This document shows, one piece after another, positions 16,728 to 25,032 of a stretch of DNA of 41,799 nucleotides. The notes beneath the pieces are model-generated. The model was not told where the DNA came from. It made no database searches and worked only from the letters and a program-made list of their open reading frames with translations. Location of the stretch: contig JACUUM010000016.1 in NCBI GenBank assembly GCA_014859305.1, positions 1 through 41,799 of the forward strand, in the 5' to 3' direction. Every line of letters starts with the position of its first letter. Position 1 is the stretch's first letter. Position numbers and translations under genes: made by a program. This stretch comes from Coriobacteriia bacterium (lineage in GTDB: Bacteria; Actinomycetota; Coriobacteriia; Anaerosomatales; Kmv31).

Positions 16728-17658
16728 TCAGCCGCTGATCGTTCCGCGGGTTCGATAGGTTGCCCTGGACTCGCCAGCCCTCCACTCGCCGGGTTCGTCG
16801 TCTCTTAGCTCGCCTACGTCCACAGCACGCTGCGGCGGCAATTCCGGTGACGGCGGCTCCTCTCCGGGCTTGGCAATCCGATTGATGTCAGCCGCGACAC
16901 GGTGGAGAACATCGTCAATGGCAGAAACGCGGTCCTCCTGGCGCACGGCCATTGACTCGTAGCGGCCGTCGCTCTCTGCCCAAGCGACCACGCCTGCACC
17001 TTCGAGGTAGGTCCGCACGAGAGCTTGGCTCTCCTTCAGCATCCTCTCCAAGTCTTCGCTTCAGCCTTGCTGCCCAAATGAAGTAGCAGCGGGGGAACTC
17101 GCTCTCTCGCCAGACGTCCCAGTGGTCGATCGTGGTGAACTGCTGCCTCCTGAAGAGCTTGAGATCCGTTGCCGCAAACTTCAGCTCCTTGCGTCGATTG
17201 CTCCAGTCGTTCAACGGGCCTCGAGATGGGTTTCCTGTGACCTTCGTCTCGAGGCATACCAGCGGATCGACCTGCCGGACTGGCCACGCGACATCTATCT
17301 GATGCAGCTGCGAGAAACCTTGAACCCTGGCGCGAGGCGCCAGGCGATGGCTCGTCCAGTTCTCGAGTAGCAATGCGATTGCCGTGGCGAACCACTGCCC
17401 CTTGCCCTTGTTGACAGCCTCGAGACGCTTCCGGTCGGTGTGCTCCGGGTTGCCCATGCCGCGCGGAGGAACCCCGGCGACGATGTACCTGTCAAGCGAC
17501 CACATCAAGTCAAGCCAGTCGGGTAGTATCGAATTGAACGACTTCAGACTCTCGTTCTGAATCCGCGCCTGGAGGACATCCCATCTATCGCCCGGGTGTC
17601 CTACCAGTCGCTCGATTCTGCGCGATTCACTTACTGCCCCCACTCGTTCCCCGCTCAC
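16728..17658 (-). pseudogene. Type II restriction endonuclease, frameshifted
   Basis: The intact N-terminal part starts at a GTG that overlaps the methyltransferase stop (GTGA). It contains RWDVLQARIQNESLKSFNSI, then VDPLVCLETKVTGNPSRGPL, a PD-(D/E)XK nuclease core with Asp ~131 and E-T-K ~137-139. After AARLK the frame turns Arg-rich and loses protein-like character. The expected continuation (SEDLERMLKESQALVRTYLE, then GAGVVAWAESDGRYESMAVR) runs in another frame to 16728. Removing one base near 17061 restores a continuous product of about 309 aa. Either the gene is inactivated or the base is an assembly error. The specificity is not recognised. Base composition is visibly less GC-rich than its neighbours, suggesting acquisition. 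Confidence 0.72.
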
Positions 17659-19370
17659 TTCTTCAGCCGTCGTCGTCTGAGGTGGGTGACCGCACTCTGG
17701 ATCAGTTCACACTGCTCGACCCCTGATCCCAGAGTATCCCTTAAGAGCACCTCATCCACTCGCTTCACCACGGGGGCCCACCTGCCGTCTCGCAGTGACG
17801 TATCGAGCCTGTCCCTCTCCTTGCGCAGGGTGAGCCAGGCGGCCGCCAGGTGCTCGGGGGTCGGGACGGGCAGCCGAGCTGCTTCCCTGGGCTCCATCTT
17901 CAGAACCCCACCCCCGTAGTAGCGCCCGTTGATCTCGGCGCCAAGCATAGACACAGAGTTCAGCATCAGCAGGGGCAAGGCCTCTTTCGCAATCGCCCGG
18001 TTCCCGGAGCCGTTCAGCCTCACCCCGTGCATGGAGTTCAAGTACGTGACCCCGGCTGAGTTCTTGATCAGGCGAGGATAGTGGTGGCTCATGTAGGTGA
18101 AGAAGAGGTCGGGTGCGGGAACGGCCGACGGCTTCCACCACCGAGTCCTTACGCGGCACTTGTAGGCCTTGTCCACCTGCGCTAGTGCCCCAAGCCGAAT
18201 GTACTTCTGCAGGCCGCCTGAGTGGCTGTCGGACCCGGGCTGAAGCATCCACACGCGTGCGTCCGATTCCCGGAGCAGATTCCAGTCACGCCTTGTGAAA
18301 CGCAGTCCCTTCAGGTGGCGCGTTCCTGGCGGCGATATCCGCAGAAGATCCGACTCATCCACACCGAACCGGAGCCGCGTGCTTTCCGAGAGCGTGAAGA
18401 ATGCGTTGGCCCCCGTGACCGTACCCAGCTCCGGCCTACCGTAGTGGGAGAGCGACACGAAGTGAGAAGCGACTGCCTCCCGATAGCAGCGCCGCTGTTC
18501 CGAGGACAAGAGCAAGTCCAGCCACTTGCCCGCCTCAGGAGACCGAGGGACGGACATACGTTCCAAGTTGAAGCGCCCCAGTTCGTCGGCATCGCGGACG
18601 TAGGCGAGCCGGAAATCGGTGCATGTGCCCCGGCCGCGTGCGAGCAACAGTACGACACGCTCAACGGCATCGGAGAAGTGAAAGCCTTCCAGGCAGACGA
18701 TCGTGACTTCCTGAAACCTGGTCTTCAGCCACTGTCGCACTGGTTGGGCGTAGTTGACGGATATGAGTTCACTGGGAAGCACCATGGCGAGTCGCCCGGC
18801 ATCCGACAGCAGCGAGGCGGAATGGACGAGAACGGGCGCCCATGACGAGGAGAGTCCGGACAGTCTGACACCCTGCCGCAAGCACTGCTCGAGGCCTTTG
18901 CTTCGCGCGCTGCCGTTGAAGAGTTGATATCGCACGAACGGGGGATTGCCGACCACGGCGTCTATCGCATCGACGCCCAGGTCGGCAGGCGATGAGACAT
19001 CGAAGATGTCGAGATGGAGCAGCCGGGCCTGAGTCCCCTCCGCCCGAAGCATCCTAGCCGCATCCTCGAGCGACTGGCTCTCGATATCCACACCATGAAG
19101 TTGCTCGTCGTGTGGGGCGCCGCCGCCGAGGAGGCGGAGTCGTCGGGAAGCGGATCTGAGAAAGGCACCGTCGCCACATGTAGGGTCCAGGATTCTGGCG
19201 CCGACCCGCCCGGCTAGTGCCCAGCGCGTAAGGAAGTCGGCGATGTAGTCAGGAGTGAAGAAGGCGCCACGAGCGTGTCGATCGGCTCGTTCGCATCGCC
19301 CTGTGCCTGCCCGCTGCTCAAGCAAGAGATCCCCCTTCGGCTGCTTCAATCGTAGCGCGCCGTCTGACAT
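17655..19370 (-). CDS. Type II N6-adenine DNA methyltransferase
   Basis: This 571-aa SAM-dependent methyltransferase shows motif X/I GAFFTPDYIADFLTRWAL and ARILDPTCGDGAFLRSASRR (SAM-binding, ~residues 50-70), HGVDIESQSLED (motif II), LLHLDIFD (motif III) and the catalytic motif IV NPPFVRYQLF (~139), the Eco57I-like/gamma N6-adenine form. The C-terminal half is a target-recognition region with TaqI-type features (LGTVTGANAFFTLSE, TYLNSMHGVRLNGSGN). ATG at 19370 has no good ribosome site. The nuclease gene overlaps its stop. The frame is open far upstream but that part is antisense or off-frame of other genes. It sits 26 nt behind the transporter gene, with lower GC, pointing to insertion of an R-M cassette. 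Confidence 0.9.
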   Translation of the reverse strand: MSDGALRLKQPKGDLLLEQRAGTGRCERADRHARGAFFTPDYIADFLTRWALAGRVGARILDPTCGDGAFLRSASRRLRLLGGGAPHDEQLHGVDIESQSLEDAARMLRAEGTQARLLHLDIFDVSSPADLGVDAIDAVVGNPPFVRYQLFNGSARSKGLEQCLRQGVRLSGLSSSWAPVLVHSASLLSDAGRLAMVLPSELISVNYAQPVRQWLKTRFQEVTIVCLEGFHFSDAVERVVLLLARGRGTCTDFRLAYVRDADELGRFNLERMSVPRSPEAGKWLDLLLSSEQRRCYREAVASHFVSLSHYGRPELGTVTGANAFFTLSESTRLRFGVDESDLLRISPPGTRHLKGLRFTRRDWNLLRESDARVWMLQPGSDSHSGGLQKYIRLGALAQVDKAYKCRVRTRWWKPSAVPAPDLFFTYMSHHYPRLIKNSAGVTYLNSMHGVRLNGSGNRAIAKEALPLLMLNSVSMLGAEINGRYYGGGVLKMEPREAARLPVPTPEHLAAAWLTLRKERDRLDTSLRDGRWAPVVKRVDEVLLRDTLGSGVEQCELIQSAVTHLRRRRLKK

Positions 19371-20653: not shown

Positions 20654-22462
20654 CTAGAACCGCACCAGCTGGCGCAGCACCGTGACCAGCAGCAGGTAGA
20701 CGGCCAGTCCCGCTGCGGCGATGCCCGTCGAGACCAGCGTCGAGGGCGCGCGCCAGCCCCCGCCGCCGGGCTTGAGCGCGAGGTAGGGCACCGCTCCGGC
20801 GACGGCCGCCACGAACAGCACCGTGAGGCCGACGGCCGCCGCGAGCGTCACCGCCGCCTCGAGCGGTTCTCCGAGCAGCTCGAGCAAGCCGAAGACGACC
20901 AGCGCGCTCACGGCTCCCAGGCCGATGCCGACCACGGCGTCCACGAGCATCTGGCGCGCGAAGCGCGGACGCTCCTCGGGGGCGCCCGCCTCGATGAGCA
21001 CGGCGAGTGAGTGCGACGAGATGTCCTCGGCGAGGCGCAGCACGAGCGGGATGAAGAGCACGGAGGCCACGAACGCCGAGATCGTGGCCGAGAACGCCCA
21101 CAGCACCAGGGCGGCGCCCACCCCGAGGACGGCCCACACGATGAGCCAGCCGCTCTTGCGGCCGAGCCAGCTCCACGCGCCCACGCCGACCTGGCGGGGC
21201 GAGCCGGTGGCCAGCGCGAGGTCCTCGGCGGACTCCGCCTCGAGCACGTCCAGCGCGTCGTCCACCGTGACGATGCCCAGGATGCGGCCGCTCTCGTCCA
21301 CCACGGGGATCGCGAGCAGGTCGTACTTGGACATGGTCTCGGCCACGTCCTCCTGGTCGTCGTCGGGCTCCACGGTGATGAGGTCGCGCTCCAGGATGTC
21401 GGCCACCCGCGTCTCGGGGGAGCTGACCAGCAGGTCGCGCAGGGACACGACGCCGATCAGCCGCCGGTCGCCCTCCACGACGTAGACGTAGTAGATGCTC
21501 TCGTTCTCCGCGGCGGCGCCGCGCAGGTGCTCGATGACCTGCTGGACTGTCATGTCCTCGGTCACGGTGGTCACCTCGGGCGTCATGATGCCGCCCGCCG
21601 TGTTCTCTCGGTAGCCCAGCAGCTTGCGGATCTGGCGGGCCTCGCGCATGCCCATCAGGCGCAGGAGCGTCTCGGCCTTGTCGTAGGGCAGGTCGCCGAT
21701 GATGTCCGCGGCGTCGTCGGGGTCCATCATCTCGAGGATGTCGGAGGCGCGCTGGTCGGTGAGGTCGGCGAAGACCTGCGCCTGGTACTCCTCCTCCAGC
21801 TCGGCGACGGCGAGTGCCGCCTGGGCGTTGTCGAGGTGCTCGAACACGCGGCCGCGCTGGCTCGGCGAGAGCGTCTCGAGGATGTCGGCGACGTCCGCGG
21901 GGTGCAGCTCGTGCAGGCGCTTGTGCGTGACCGAGAGCTGCACGTGGCTCAAGTCCCGGTCGAGCAGGTCCATGTAGTTCCAGGCGATCAAGGACTCGGG
22001 CAGCCTGCGGCCCACGAGCCGTGCGGCCGCGCCGGCCGCATGCTCCAGCACCGGGGAGATGCCGCGGAGGATCCCACGGATCCCGACCTCGGCTCCGAGC
22101 AGCCGCAGCGCCTTGGCCGACTCGGAGAGCTTCAGGTCGTTCACGCGCACGACCTTCATGCCCTGCGTGTCGACGATCTGCTTGTTCAGCAGGTCGCGGG
22201 CGAGCAGGACCTCGTCGGGCTGAAGGTAGGAGAAGCGCAGCTGCGAGCGGGGCGCGTCCAGGAGCACGCGTTCCTCGTCGAACTCGGCCACGTACTTCCG
22301 CCACGAGAGCATGAACGGCGTCCTGTCCGGGCCGACGAAGGCCAGCGACGTGACGCGCGGGAAGATCTCGCCGGTGGCGATGGCGACGTCGTTGATCGCA
22401 CCGATCGTCTCGCCCGCGGCGTCGACGACCGGCCGGCCGAGCATCCGCGTCAGATAGATCAT
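20654..22462 (-). CDS. MgtE-like protein: PRC-barrel, MgtE-N, CBS pair, divergent membrane domain
   Basis: MgtE forms Mg2+ channels gated by cytosolic N and CBS domains. The 602-aa product starts with a PRC-barrel-like region (MIYLTRMLGRPVVDAAGETI), then the MgtE-N superhelix (~190-300: LHELHPADVADILETLSPSQ, DPDDAADIIGDL, KLLGYRENTAGGIMTPEVTT), a CBS pair (~300-430) and five hydrophobic helices. The canonical MgtE pore marks, a GGN-x-G-x-Q segment and a helix-5 Asp, are not visible: the corresponding stretch is VLFIPLVLRLAEDISSHSLA. It may thus act as a Mg2+ sensor or accessory to the NRMT partner rather than as the pore. ATG at 22462 has GGAGGG 8 nt upstream. First gene of the riboswitch operon. 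Confidence 0.87.
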   Translation of the reverse strand: MIYLTRMLGRPVVDAAGETIGAINDVAIATGEIFPRVTSLAFVGPDRTPFMLSWRKYVAEFDEERVLLDAPRSQLRFSYLQPDEVLLARDLLNKQIVDTQGMKVVRVNDLKLSESAKALRLLGAEVGIRGILRGISPVLEHAAGAAARLVGRRLPESLIAWNYMDLLDRDLSHVQLSVTHKRLHELHPADVADILETLSPSQRGRVFEHLDNAQAALAVAELEEEYQAQVFADLTDQRASDILEMMDPDDAADIIGDLPYDKAETLLRLMGMREARQIRKLLGYRENTAGGIMTPEVTTVTEDMTVQQVIEHLRGAAAENESIYYVYVVEGDRRLIGVVSLRDLLVSSPETRVADILERDLITVEPDDDQEDVAETMSKYDLLAIPVVDESGRILGIVTVDDALDVLEAESAEDLALATGSPRQVGVGAWSWLGRKSGWLIVWAVLGVGAALVLWAFSATISAFVASVLFIPLVLRLAEDISSHSLAVLIEAGAPEERPRFARQMLVDAVVGIGLGAVSALVVFGLLELLGEPLEAAVTLAAAVGLTVLFVAAVAGAVPYLALKPGGGGWRAPSTLVSTGIAAAGLAVYLLLVTVLRQLVRF

Positions 22463-22638: not shown

Positions 22639-22699
22639 GCGGGCGCGCGCTCGTGCACGCGCAGGGGACAGGGCCGCGCGGCGGCCGAGTCCCGCCCCG

Positions 22700-22872
22700 T
22701 CCCTCGTTGGAGGTTTTGGCACTGCCCGACGTAGTGCCCGCAGGCCTTGCGGCGAGCGGACCAGCCACCTTAGCCGTCGCCTTAAGCCGGCGAAAGCTGT
22801 TCTACCCATTGGCGTCTCTCGACATTTCCGGGCAGTGGCCTGTGTTCGGACAGGAGCCGCACCTTAACGGAA
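22700..22872 (-). promoter_or_regulatory. M-box (ykoK) Mg2+ riboswitch aptamer
   Basis: Read on the minus strand the sequence contains the M-box core in order: CCGTTAAGGTGCGGCTCC, CACTGCCCGGAAATGTCGAG, AGACGCCAATGGGT, CTAAGGTGGCT, and GTGCCAAAACCTCCAACG. These match the conserved segments of the ykoK leader (CGTTAGGTGAGGCTCC, CTGCCCA.AAATGTC, AGACGCCAATGGGT, TAAGGTG, AGTGC..A..CTC). M-box RNAs fold when Mg2+ binds and then allow termination, shutting off Mg2+ uptake genes. The downstream terminator and the MgtE-like and NRMT genes fit that role exactly. Confidence 0.95.
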
Positions 22873-22919
22873 AGGGCTTCTCCGTGCTGTCAACGCTCCT
22901 AGTGAACCGGAGCACGAAG

Positions 22920-22948
22920 ATTCTAGTCCAAGCTGGTAGAAGGCGCAA
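22920..22948 (-). promoter_or_regulatory. Promoter of the M-box/mgtE/NRMT operon
   Basis: On the minus strand TTGCGC (22948-22943) and TAGAAT (22925-22920) are exactly 17 nt apart. Transcription should start near 22913, about 45 nt before the aptamer. Confidence 0.65.
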
Positions 22949-22953
22949 CGCGA

Positions 22954-22993
22954 GCCGCCAGCCACGCGTCGGCCGGCTCCGCGCGGCGCTCGG
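22954..22993. repeat. Direct repeat copy A (remnant of HAD gene 3' end)
   Basis: This shows 35/40 identity to 24149-24188, including 21 consecutive identical bases (22954-22974 and 24149-24169). On the minus strand both encode a version of AE-x-ADAWLAAR, the C-terminus of the HAD phosphatase. In this copy the frame runs only a few codons further to a stop. It lies just upstream of the -35 box of the Mg2+ operon. Confidence 0.8.
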
Positions 22994-23070
22994 GGCTCGG
23001 CGCGCGCCTGCGCAGCCGTGCCGAGAGGAGCTTGCAACGCAGCTCTCTTCCTGTAGATTCCAGTAGCTGC

Positions 23071-23076
23071 TATCAT
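23071..23076 (+). promoter_or_regulatory. Extended -10 for a probable leaderless transcript
   Basis: TGC-TATCAT ends 6 nt before the ATG at 23083, so RNA synthesis should begin at the start codon itself. No ribosome-binding site is present, which agrees with a leaderless mRNA. A weak -35 (TTCCTG) lies 17 nt upstream. Confidence 0.45.
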
Positions 23077-23082
23077 CATCGC

Positions 23083-23895
23083 ATGGAAGAGCTCTTCAGC
23101 ATCGCGCGGGTCGCGGAGTACCTCGGCGTGAGCGAGCGCACGGTCTACGATAAGGTGCGCACGGGGGAGTTGCCGGCGCTCAAGGTGGGACGGCTGTGGC
23201 GCGTCCGCAGGGGTGACCTCGAGGAGTGGCTCTCGCAGCGGTCCGGACACGAGCGGCCCTCAGGCGAGGAGAGGCGCGGTCCGTATCCGCACTCCGCCCT
23301 GGACGTGCCGCTCCCCATGGCGCGGGAAGGCGCCGGGGTGCCGACGCGCGGGGAGCTGTCCGCGTTGCTCGAGCCCATCTCCGACACCCTCGGGCGGCGG
23401 CTCGCGTTCGTCGGCCTCCTGGTCCGGGGAGTCGAGGCGCTGGGGTGGCCCGCCCCGGTCGTCGTAGGCGGCAACGCTGTCGAGTTCTACACCGCCGGGG
23501 ACTACCCGACCGTCGACGTCGACCTGGCCGGGGCGTCCGAGCCCGTGGCCGAGGTGCTTGACTCCTGGGGCTTCGAGCGAGAGGGGCGCCACTTCTACGA
23601 CGAAGAGCTCAACCTCCTGGTCGAGGTACCCGGCGGCACCCTGCCCCCCGACCGGCTCGGACACGTGGCGGAGGTGAGGATCGCGGGGGTGACGGCCTAC
23701 ATCCTGGGGATAGAGGATCTGATCATCGACAGGCTCGCGGCGTGCGCGTTCCGGCAGGACGCGGAGTCGTGCCGCTGGGCAGCCGTGCTCCTGGCCGGAG
23801 CACCCGAGCTCGACCTCGCCTACCTGAAGCGGCGTGCCGCCGAGGAAGACCTGGAGGGGCCTCTGATGCGGCTGCGCGAGGAGGGGCCGGCGTGA
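23083..23895 (+). CDS. HTH (excisionase-type) domain fused to nucleotidyltransferase-like domain
   Basis: This 270-aa protein has two modules. Residues 1-50 (FSIARVAEYLGVSERTVYDK, LPALKVGRLWRVRRGDLEEW) are a winged HTH of the excisionase/MerR-like group 17 type. Residues ~125-265 look like a nucleotidyltransferase-fold domain: VVVGGNAVEFYTAGDYPTVD followed by VDL, where GG-N and the D-x-D (DVD) match the metal and nucleotide site, with LGIEDLIIDRLAACAFRQDA later, as in DUF6036/AbiEii-like proteins. Such combinations can be toxin, antitoxin or regulator components. The start has a -10 box 6 nt upstream and no ribosome site. The stop overlaps the 73-aa gene (GTGA). The pair is enclosed by direct repeats. 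Confidence 0.78.
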   Translation: MEELFSIARVAEYLGVSERTVYDKVRTGELPALKVGRLWRVRRGDLEEWLSQRSGHERPSGEERRGPYPHSALDVPLPMAREGAGVPTRGELSALLEPISDTLGRRLAFVGLLVRGVEALGWPAPVVVGGNAVEFYTAGDYPTVDVDLAGASEPVAEVLDSWGFEREGRHFYDEELNLLVEVPGGTLPPDRLGHVAEVRIAGVTAYILGIEDLIIDRLAACAFRQDAESCRWAAVLLAGAPELDLAYLKRRAAEEDLEGPLMRLREEGPA

Positions 23896-24113
23896 CTCGC
23901 GTGTACGACTACGACCGGTGGATGGCCGAGCGCGGCCGCATGCTGCCGCTGATCGCAAGGCTCGCCGGGCAGCCTCGTGCGACACGGCGGCGGCCGCGGA
24001 GCCCCGAGGAGTCCAGGATGCTCGCCCGCGCGGCGCTCGACGCGATCCGGCGACGCGAGCGGGAGGGGCGCCTGAGGCGCCTGGGCCCCCGCCGCTACGA
24101 GCTGAGGAACTGA
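23892..24113 (+). CDS. Small basic protein, partner of the HTH-nucleotidyltransferase
   Basis: The 73-aa, very basic product (RVYDYDRWMAERGRMLPLIA at the N-terminus, RRREREGRLRRLGPRRYELR at the end) is predicted mostly helical and has no recognised family. The GTG start overlaps the upstream stop (GTGA), which argues that it is a real second cistron. The length, charge and tight coupling would fit the small member of a toxin-antitoxin-like or regulator pair, but this is inference from layout only. The stop lies 4 nt before the convergent HAD stop. Confidence 0.6.
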   Translation: MTRVYDYDRWMAERGRMLPLIARLAGQPRATRRRPRSPEESRMLARAALDAIRRREREGRLRRLGPRRYELRN

Positions 24114-24117
24114 CGCC

Positions 24118-25032
24118 CTACGGCGGGCCCGTCCTCCCGCCTCCGCGCGCCGCCAGCCACGCGTCGGCCAGCTCCGCCCAGCCCTCGCCGCGCGCGCCGC
24201 GCGTCACGTACACGTTCTCCCGCCCGCGCACCGCGGCGCGCACGCGCTCGTCGGCGAGCGCGTTGGCGACCAGGACGAGCATCACGCACTCGTCGGCCAT
24301 CTCGACGTCGGTCTCCGAGTCGCCGATCGCGCAGGCCTGCCGCCGCTCCAGTCCCCGGCCGGTCAGGTCGCGCAGGACGGCGCCGCTCTTGGTGACGCCG
24401 CTGGGGACGAGGTGGTAGACGTGCACCCGCTCGACGCCGACGAGCGTGGTCGAGGGCGGGCGGATGATGCCGTTGTCCACGACGCGCACGGGCAGACCGA
24501 TGCCCTCGAGCACGACCGTCGCGGCCTCGAGGTCCAGCTCGCCGCGCAGCACGTGCGTGGCCTCGCGGTTCAGGTGCCACGGCGTGTGGTTCTCGATGCG
24601 CCCCGGGAACGCGCGCACCAGCGCATCGAGCACGCCCGCCCGCTCGATCAGCTCGTAGGGGGTCACGCCGTCGGGCAGGGTCCCGTCGGGCCAGTCGCCC
24701 AGGTAGTACTCCTGCTGCCCGCCGCGGTCGCGGACGAGCACGCAGCCGAGCTCGGCGATGAAGCCGCTCCACCCGCAGACCCGCGCGACCTCTGTGAGCT
24801 GCACGCGGTTGCGTCCCGAGGACAGCACGACGGGCAGCCCGGCGGCGTTGAGCCGCACGATCGCCTGAGCGGTCGCGGCCGAGGGACGGCCGTCGGCGTC
24901 GGCCAGCAGCGTCCCTCCCGGGCCGAGGAGCGTGCCGTCAAGGTCGGTGTAGAGCACCTCGACGCCGGCGAGCGCGGCCCGCGCCTCCGGCGACTCGTCG
25001 AGCAAGGGCAGGCCGTGAACGGGGGCGGGCAT
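24118..25032 (-). CDS. HAD-superfamily phosphatase (Cof/SPP/MPGP-like)
   Basis: The 304-aa protein has the four HAD motifs: I, LYTDLDGTLLG (~28-38); II, VVLSSGRNRVQ; III, SGVTKSGAVLRDL (Lys); IV, CAIGDSETDVEMADE. A C2-type cap between motifs II and III includes ENHTPWHLNREATHVLRGEL. This places it among the Cof-type phosphatases of sugar phosphates (sucrose-, trehalose- or mannosyl-phosphoglycerate phosphatase relatives); the substrate is not known. ATG with GAGGAG 7 nt upstream. The last ~30 codons (GEGWAELADAWLAAR) are the source or target of the duplicated segment found at 22954-22993. Confidence 0.86.
   Translation of the reverse strand: MPAPVHGLPLLDESPEARAALAGVEVLYTDLDGTLLGPGGTLLADADGRPSAATAQAIVRLNAAGLPVVLSSGRNRVQLTEVARVCGWSGFIAELGCVLVRDRGGQQEYYLGDWPDGTLPDGVTPYELIERAGVLDALVRAFPGRIENHTPWHLNREATHVLRGELDLEAATVVLEGIGLPVRVVDNGIIRPPSTTLVGVERVHVYHLVPSGVTKSGAVLRDLTGRGLERRQACAIGDSETDVEMADECVMLVLVANALADERVRAAVRGRENVYVTRGARGEGWAELADAWLAARGGGRTGPP
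24149..24188. repeat. Direct repeat copy B (3' end of HAD gene)
   Basis: This is the copy inside the intact HAD coding region, in the same orientation as copy A at 22954-22993. About 1.15 kb lies between the copies, filled almost entirely by the HTH-nucleotidyltransferase pair. Confidence 0.8.

Follow-up and report, generated by a model that had tools for sequence, protein, structure and literature searches.

Nucleotidyltransferases that form a two-gene unit with a short (~70 aa) partner protein are known from the MenAT1 and DUF1814 (AbiEii) toxin-antitoxin systems (PMC10435456, PMC11375011). New two-gene modules positioned at the 3' end of a gene, with the displaced old 3' end still present, are known from Vibrio T6SS modules, whose scars have been discussed in terms of one-sided-homology or homology-facilitated illegitimate recombination (PMC5361080). 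Regulators of the BldC and excisionase type carry a wHTH domain, and direct repeats of ~9 bp are bound by BldC in a head-to-tail arrangement (PMC5859096). Here we compare these systems, together with the HEPN-MNT (type VII) toxin-antitoxin systems, with a locus found in a 41,799-nucleotide stretch of a Coriobacteriia genome (contig JACUUM010000016.1), hereafter called the window; the genome is a draft of 76 contigs that is 98% complete. In the window, a gene for an HTH_17-nucleotidyltransferase fusion and a gene for a 73-aa partner are located between a HAD-family hydrolase gene and the M-box preceding mgtE, and both genes are flanked by a direct repeat of the HAD gene 3' end (Table 1). In our view the likely explanation is a lineage-specific insertion of a toxin-antitoxin-type module into the HAD tail by illegitimate recombination, in the course of which the HAD tail was duplicated.

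Table 1. Features of the HAD-mgtE region; positions refer to the window.
Feature	Position	Strand	Details
mgtE magnesium transporter gene	20654..22462	-	TIGR00400 above cut-off
M-box Mg2+ riboswitch	22693..22878	-	Rfam RF00380, 120.5 bits
mgtE promoter	22920..22948	-	-35 TTGCGC (22943-22948), 17-nt spacer, -10 TAGAAT (22920-22925); directly adjoins copy A
Copy A of the repeat	22949..23013	-	former HAD 3' end, now decayed; still contiguous with the mgtE promoter
Inserted DNA, ~1.13 kb (predicted extent)	23014..24143		empty site in 31/37 order genomes
Module promoter/operator	23048..23076	+	direct repeats TTCCTGT and TTCCAGT (10 nt from start to start), followed by an extended -10, TGCTATCAT
HTH_17-nucleotidyltransferase fusion gene	23083..23895	+	HTH_17 at residues 4-54, E 6.6e-17; DUF6036 E 8e-5, just under the curated cut-off
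73-aa partner gene	23892..24113	+	4-bp overlap with the nucleotidyltransferase gene; adjacent homologues; model pLDDT 81
HAD-IIB family hydrolase gene, insertion target	24118..25032	-	Pfam Hydrolase_3 E 9e-13; C-termini of 29 relatives
Copy B of the repeat	24144..24202	-	functional HAD 3' coding end; GARGEGWAELADAWLAAR

It is useful to look at the two proteins of the module in the light of the MenAT1 and DUF1814 systems. Apart from the two-gene organisation, the S/T-x-DxD active-site motif is common to both sides. In the fusion protein it appears as TxDxD at 143-147, preceded by GG at 129-130, and in the nucleotidyltransferase family (n=51) D145, D216 and R217 are invariant, S/T is found at position 143 in all members and D147 in 50 of them, GG129-130 being also among the invariant or nearly invariant residues. 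The predicted model of the fusion protein (pLDDT 88) may point in the same direction: MenT1 and TglT (MenT3) are among its best fold matches, even if the Foldseek matches, i.e. ANT(2''), TM1012, MenT1, the MenAT1 complex and TglT, are weak (E 2e-3 to 1e-2, TM 0.3-0.5; MenT1 and TglT, among the top PDB matches, E 5e-3 to 1e-2). A sequence search of the PDB with profile A1 gave no match. On the other hand, there are differences in several respects. Firstly, the module is in sequence near DUF6036 (matched by 46 of the 51 family members) and not near DUF1814; DUF1814/AbiEii is not among the 18 Pfam families listed for the nucleotidyltransferase, where the matches are DUF6036, DUF2204 and NTP_transf_5. 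Secondly, MenT toxins have a lysine at what we infer to be the position of the invariant R217 that follows D216 in the module. Thirdly, the module nucleotidyltransferase carries an HTH_17 head in Actinomycetota, and the Pfam search with the 73-aa partner of the window gave no match, just as a fold search with its model, which predicts two helices followed by a C-terminal beta hairpin, returned nothing significant.

The complete module, i.e. the HTH_17-nucleotidyltransferase plus the partner, is present in about 13 of the 69 genomes of the order, mostly at other loci. Its neighbours vary and include a pafC-like gene, selB, a cytochrome gene, purH and bioY, or else it lies between leuB and ilvE (gene names are from reading the translations, with tblastn in addition for leuB and ilvE), and in at least one genome (G046) the nucleotidyltransferase gene is frame-shifted. 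A sample of 400 genomes from the whole class gave strong matches within this order only, and on plasmids we found only partial, distant relatives of the module (28-46% identity). The comparison of the nucleotidyltransferase tree with the HAD tree revealed no clear conflict with vertical descent and hence gives no proof that the module was transferred horizontally. The pairing of the two genes reaches much further. Homologues of the partner adjoin a nucleotidyltransferase in Coriobacteriia, in other Actinomycetota and in about 30 of 47 distant loci, and the distant pairs come from archaea (including Methanoperedens), Nitrospirota and Bacillota. The order of the two genes varies: among 32 distant loci there are 13 with the partner gene first, and the downstream position occurs as well. 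In Methanoperedens and a related archaeon (L070, L077, L069, L071, L110) the upstream partner has a longer N-terminal leader that is MazE/AbrB-like.

The function of the module can be approached from several sides. An N-terminal MazE_antitoxin domain was detected in 2 of the 36 partners scanned, both of them archaeal (best E 4e-6), and a MazE-type leader is also visible in other Methanoperedens partners. Given the putative MenT-like fold, an ancient partner with a MazE domain in two archaea, the direct-repeat promoter and the parallel to HEPN-MNT systems, both described below, a toxin-antitoxin function of the module is probable. The putative MenT-like fold and the motif, along with the MazE-tagged partners, favour the nucleotidyltransferase as the toxin, and we propose that it would be a MenT-like RNA-modifying enzyme neutralised by the small partner. 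The reverse polarity, with the 73-aa protein as toxin and the HTH-nucleotidyltransferase as antitoxin, like MNT in type VII, is favoured by the HTH fusion and by the parallel to MNT: antitoxins are the usual carriers of DNA-binding domains, and the same head is found on a true MNT beside HEPN in G036, G042, G055 and G057. However, the MazE antitoxin domain of the archaeal members is on the partner, the partner is often the upstream gene in the distant loci, as counted above, and the predicted nucleotidyltransferase fold is closer to the MenT toxins, with the S/T-x-D motif kept. We consider the reversed polarity unlikely, though worth bearing in mind, and prefer the nucleotidyltransferase as the toxin.

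The regulatory region of the module is conserved. In the upstream alignment of the 13 Coriobacteriia copies the conserved element is TTCCTAT-N3-TTCCTAT-N3-TGCTAnnAT, close variants included, and it stops 6 nt short of the ATG. The promoter element of the window ends at the same distance, which suggests that the transcript is probably leaderless. A strict version of the operator pattern has 10 matches in the 69 genomes, all of them directly before HTH_17 genes, and none in the reversed control; the window operator deviates from the strict pattern and is not one of the 10. In structural superposition the HTH head fits both BldC (rmsd 1.2-1.9) and Pukovnik Xis, and it resembles the NCBIfam family 'excise'. 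The overall arrangement is similar to that of the BldC and excisionase-type regulators in as much as a wHTH-type head is combined with two direct repeats in the operator of the window (PMC5859096). The module differs from BldC in that its repeat starts are 10 nt apart, as opposed to 9 bp, and in that its head is fused to an enzyme. We propose that the head would bind the TTCCTAT direct repeats, which overlap the promoter, and would in this way repress its own, leaderless operon.

A further parallel comes from the leuB-ilvE site of the relatives. In four genomes (G036, G042, G055 and G057; loci L048, L047, L046 and L049, respectively, with Pfam run on the G055 and G036 proteins) this site contains the HTH_17 head fused to an MNT, followed by a HEPN gene, and the exact operator pattern is present at three of the four loci. 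The same site is occupied by the DUF6036-type module in G018, G027, G046, G062 and G063, and in the genome of the window leuB and ilvE are adjacent, the site being empty with a gap of 57 bp. HEPN-MNT type VII systems share with the module the HTH_17 head and, in three genomes, also the operator pattern; the window module is set apart by its DUF6036-type nucleotidyltransferase with a 73-aa partner, and it has no HEPN gene. This points to regulator heads common to unrelated toxin-antitoxin bodies; the gene pair itself is conserved from archaea to bacteria, and its small partner is without a matching family. A broader reading, on which we lean neither way, is that DUF6036-like nucleotidyltransferases and their ~70-aa partners make up an undescribed, widespread toxin-antitoxin-like family, to which in Coriobacteriia a regulator was fused. 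Together with its direct-repeat operator, this HTH_17 regulator would be an exchangeable head, able to carry either the DUF6036-type body or a HEPN-MNT body at one chromosomal site.

The insertion becomes apparent when the HAD-mgtE junction is compared in the order, the relatives being at family distance or more. The HAD gene and the M-box are on one contig and on the same strand in 37 order genomes, the window included. The initial annotation had pointed to an uninterrupted HAD-M-box junction in relatives as the check for an insertion, and such an empty version of the site is present in 31 of the 37 genomes, with a gap of 63-202 bp. A complete lack of empty sites, which it had named as evidence against an insertion, is thus not what the relatives show. 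Longer gaps are found in G031 (381 bp), the window (1242 bp), G024 (1335 bp), G003 (3470 bp), G059 (4614 bp) and G036 (8134 bp). There are also genomes (G025, G009 and G022) in which the junction is empty and the module is at another locus. In the uninterrupted relatives the mgtE promoter (e.g. TTGCGC...TACAAT) is closely behind the HAD stop. Since this layout matches that of copy A and the promoter in the window, copy A together with the mgtE promoter is, judged by the arrangement of the sequences, the original HAD junction. The inserted DNA supplied the last codons of the present HAD gene (GGGRTGPP) together with the stop.

The two copies of the HAD tail can be aligned without gaps from 22949 to 23007 and from 24144 to 24202, in the same orientation (59 nt, 81% identity), and a gapped alignment, in which 53 of 59 bases are identical (gaps of 5 nt and 1 nt), extends copy A to 23013. 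The direct repeat reported at 22954 and 24149 in the initial annotation is thus real, its starts falling 5 bp inside the repeat, and its anatomy was also described correctly: copy B belongs to the intact HAD gene as its 3' coding end, copy A is a remnant in which the frame is preserved (AEPADAWLAARVAPSTSLD, then a stop), and the space between them is filled by the two-gene unit. Besides the two overlapping genes, the insert contains ~33 bp and the promoter ahead of them and ~30 bp behind them. In agreement with the earlier reading there is no integrase between the repeats, where only the two genes are present; nor is there a transposase in the module region, and the duplication is ~60 bp long, with no short target duplication. 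Copy A has a score of 70 against the HAD end of its own genome and of at most 44 against that of any relative, from which it follows that the duplication arose in this lineage. Conserved codons have been lost from copy A, so the event is not recent.

How the module was joined to the HAD gene can be pictured as follows. In the ancestral state the end of the HAD gene would have directly met the promoter of mgtE, a gene under M-box control. A fragment of ~1.1 kb, with little beyond the module and its own promoter, would have been joined into the last ~20 HAD codons, most likely by illegitimate, repair-type joining, either end joining or capture through one-sided homology, and the HAD tail would have been doubled in the process. 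On the HAD side the copy would have gained a new C-terminal tail and a stop from the inserted DNA, while the copy on the mgtE side would have retained the promoter and decayed later. Ordinary transposon target duplications are far shorter than ~60 bp. The imperfect duplication of ~60 bp, the cargo of ~1.1 kb and the lack of a recombinase seem to fit illegitimate joining with partial duplication best. As opposed to the Vibrio T6SS scars mentioned at the outset (PMC5361080), the HAD reading frame is intact here and only ~60 bp are duplicated, and the mechanism is one that we propose from the final anatomy. The locus is a clear before-and-after case in which a small chromosomal toxin-antitoxin-like unit has entered a compact gene junction with neither neighbour broken, the HAD end and the mgtE promoter both being kept because the tail was duplicated.

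An identical final anatomy would be produced in two steps, with a tandem duplication of the HAD 3' end, arising by slippage or unequal repair, coming first and the module entering between the repeats at a later time; that the copies have already diverged shows that the events are old and would suit this sequence of events as well. Such a course requires two independent events at one 60-bp place, however, and no tandem HAD tail is found in the empty junctions inspected, which makes it unlikely. The initial annotation had spoken of a target or att-like duplication at a gene 3' end. Insertion and duplication at the 3' end are borne out by the 31 empty junctions; the att-like part is not. An insertion at a 3' end, a direct repeat and a rebuilt 3' end are the usual anatomy of att sites, and one could think of the repeats as attL and attR of a small element whose integrase was lost or acted in trans, with the HTH head, given its likeness to the phage Xis structure and to 'excise', as an excisionase relic. 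But the search for the module between similar repeats, also proposed earlier, revealed no comparable flanking repeats at the 12 other Coriobacteriia copies, most of them with both sides sequenced, and no module relatives were found in viral contigs or phage records. Both results make an att or integrase mechanism unlikely, and the fusion of the HTH to a nucleotidyltransferase behind a conserved operator is better explained by autoregulation. Chance similarity of GC-rich sequences can practically be dismissed, in spite of the GC-rich region and a chance match within the own genome at E 3.6e-4, because the local score of 70 is above the maximum of 49 (mean 27) of 2000 dinucleotide-preserving shuffles, the copies are in the same frame and copy A is placed exactly at the HAD end of the relatives. 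In the rest of the window the best match to the same 60 nt scores 34-36, and blastn of one flank of the module against the other gives E = 9e-13. An own-genome match at C4:31792 (77% over 66 nt) is inside a pseudouridine-synthase-like gene, as identified by eye, and was treated as chance.

Insertion by illegitimate joining at this place can also be viewed against the other interrupted junctions. None of them (G024, G031, G059, G003, G036) has HAD-tail repeats that score above shuffles, and the HAD-mgtE intergenic site seems to be permissive for insertions. In G024 the interval (L113:1235-2200, G024:C2) contains a YoeB-YefM toxin-antitoxin pair and a DUF1801 gene, an independent interruption without flanking repeats. 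As read from the translations, the junction is interrupted by two large genes in G059 (L112:1000-5337), by a PAS/kinase-like gene in G003 (L115:1021-3975) and by kdp-like potassium transport genes in G036 (L116:1025-7997). On the other side of the junction, downstream of mgtE in the window, there is an ORF at 17655-19300 (-) with an NPPF-type motif, which on reading of its translation is apparently an N6-adenine DNA methyltransferase and which adjoins an Nramp-like transporter gene.
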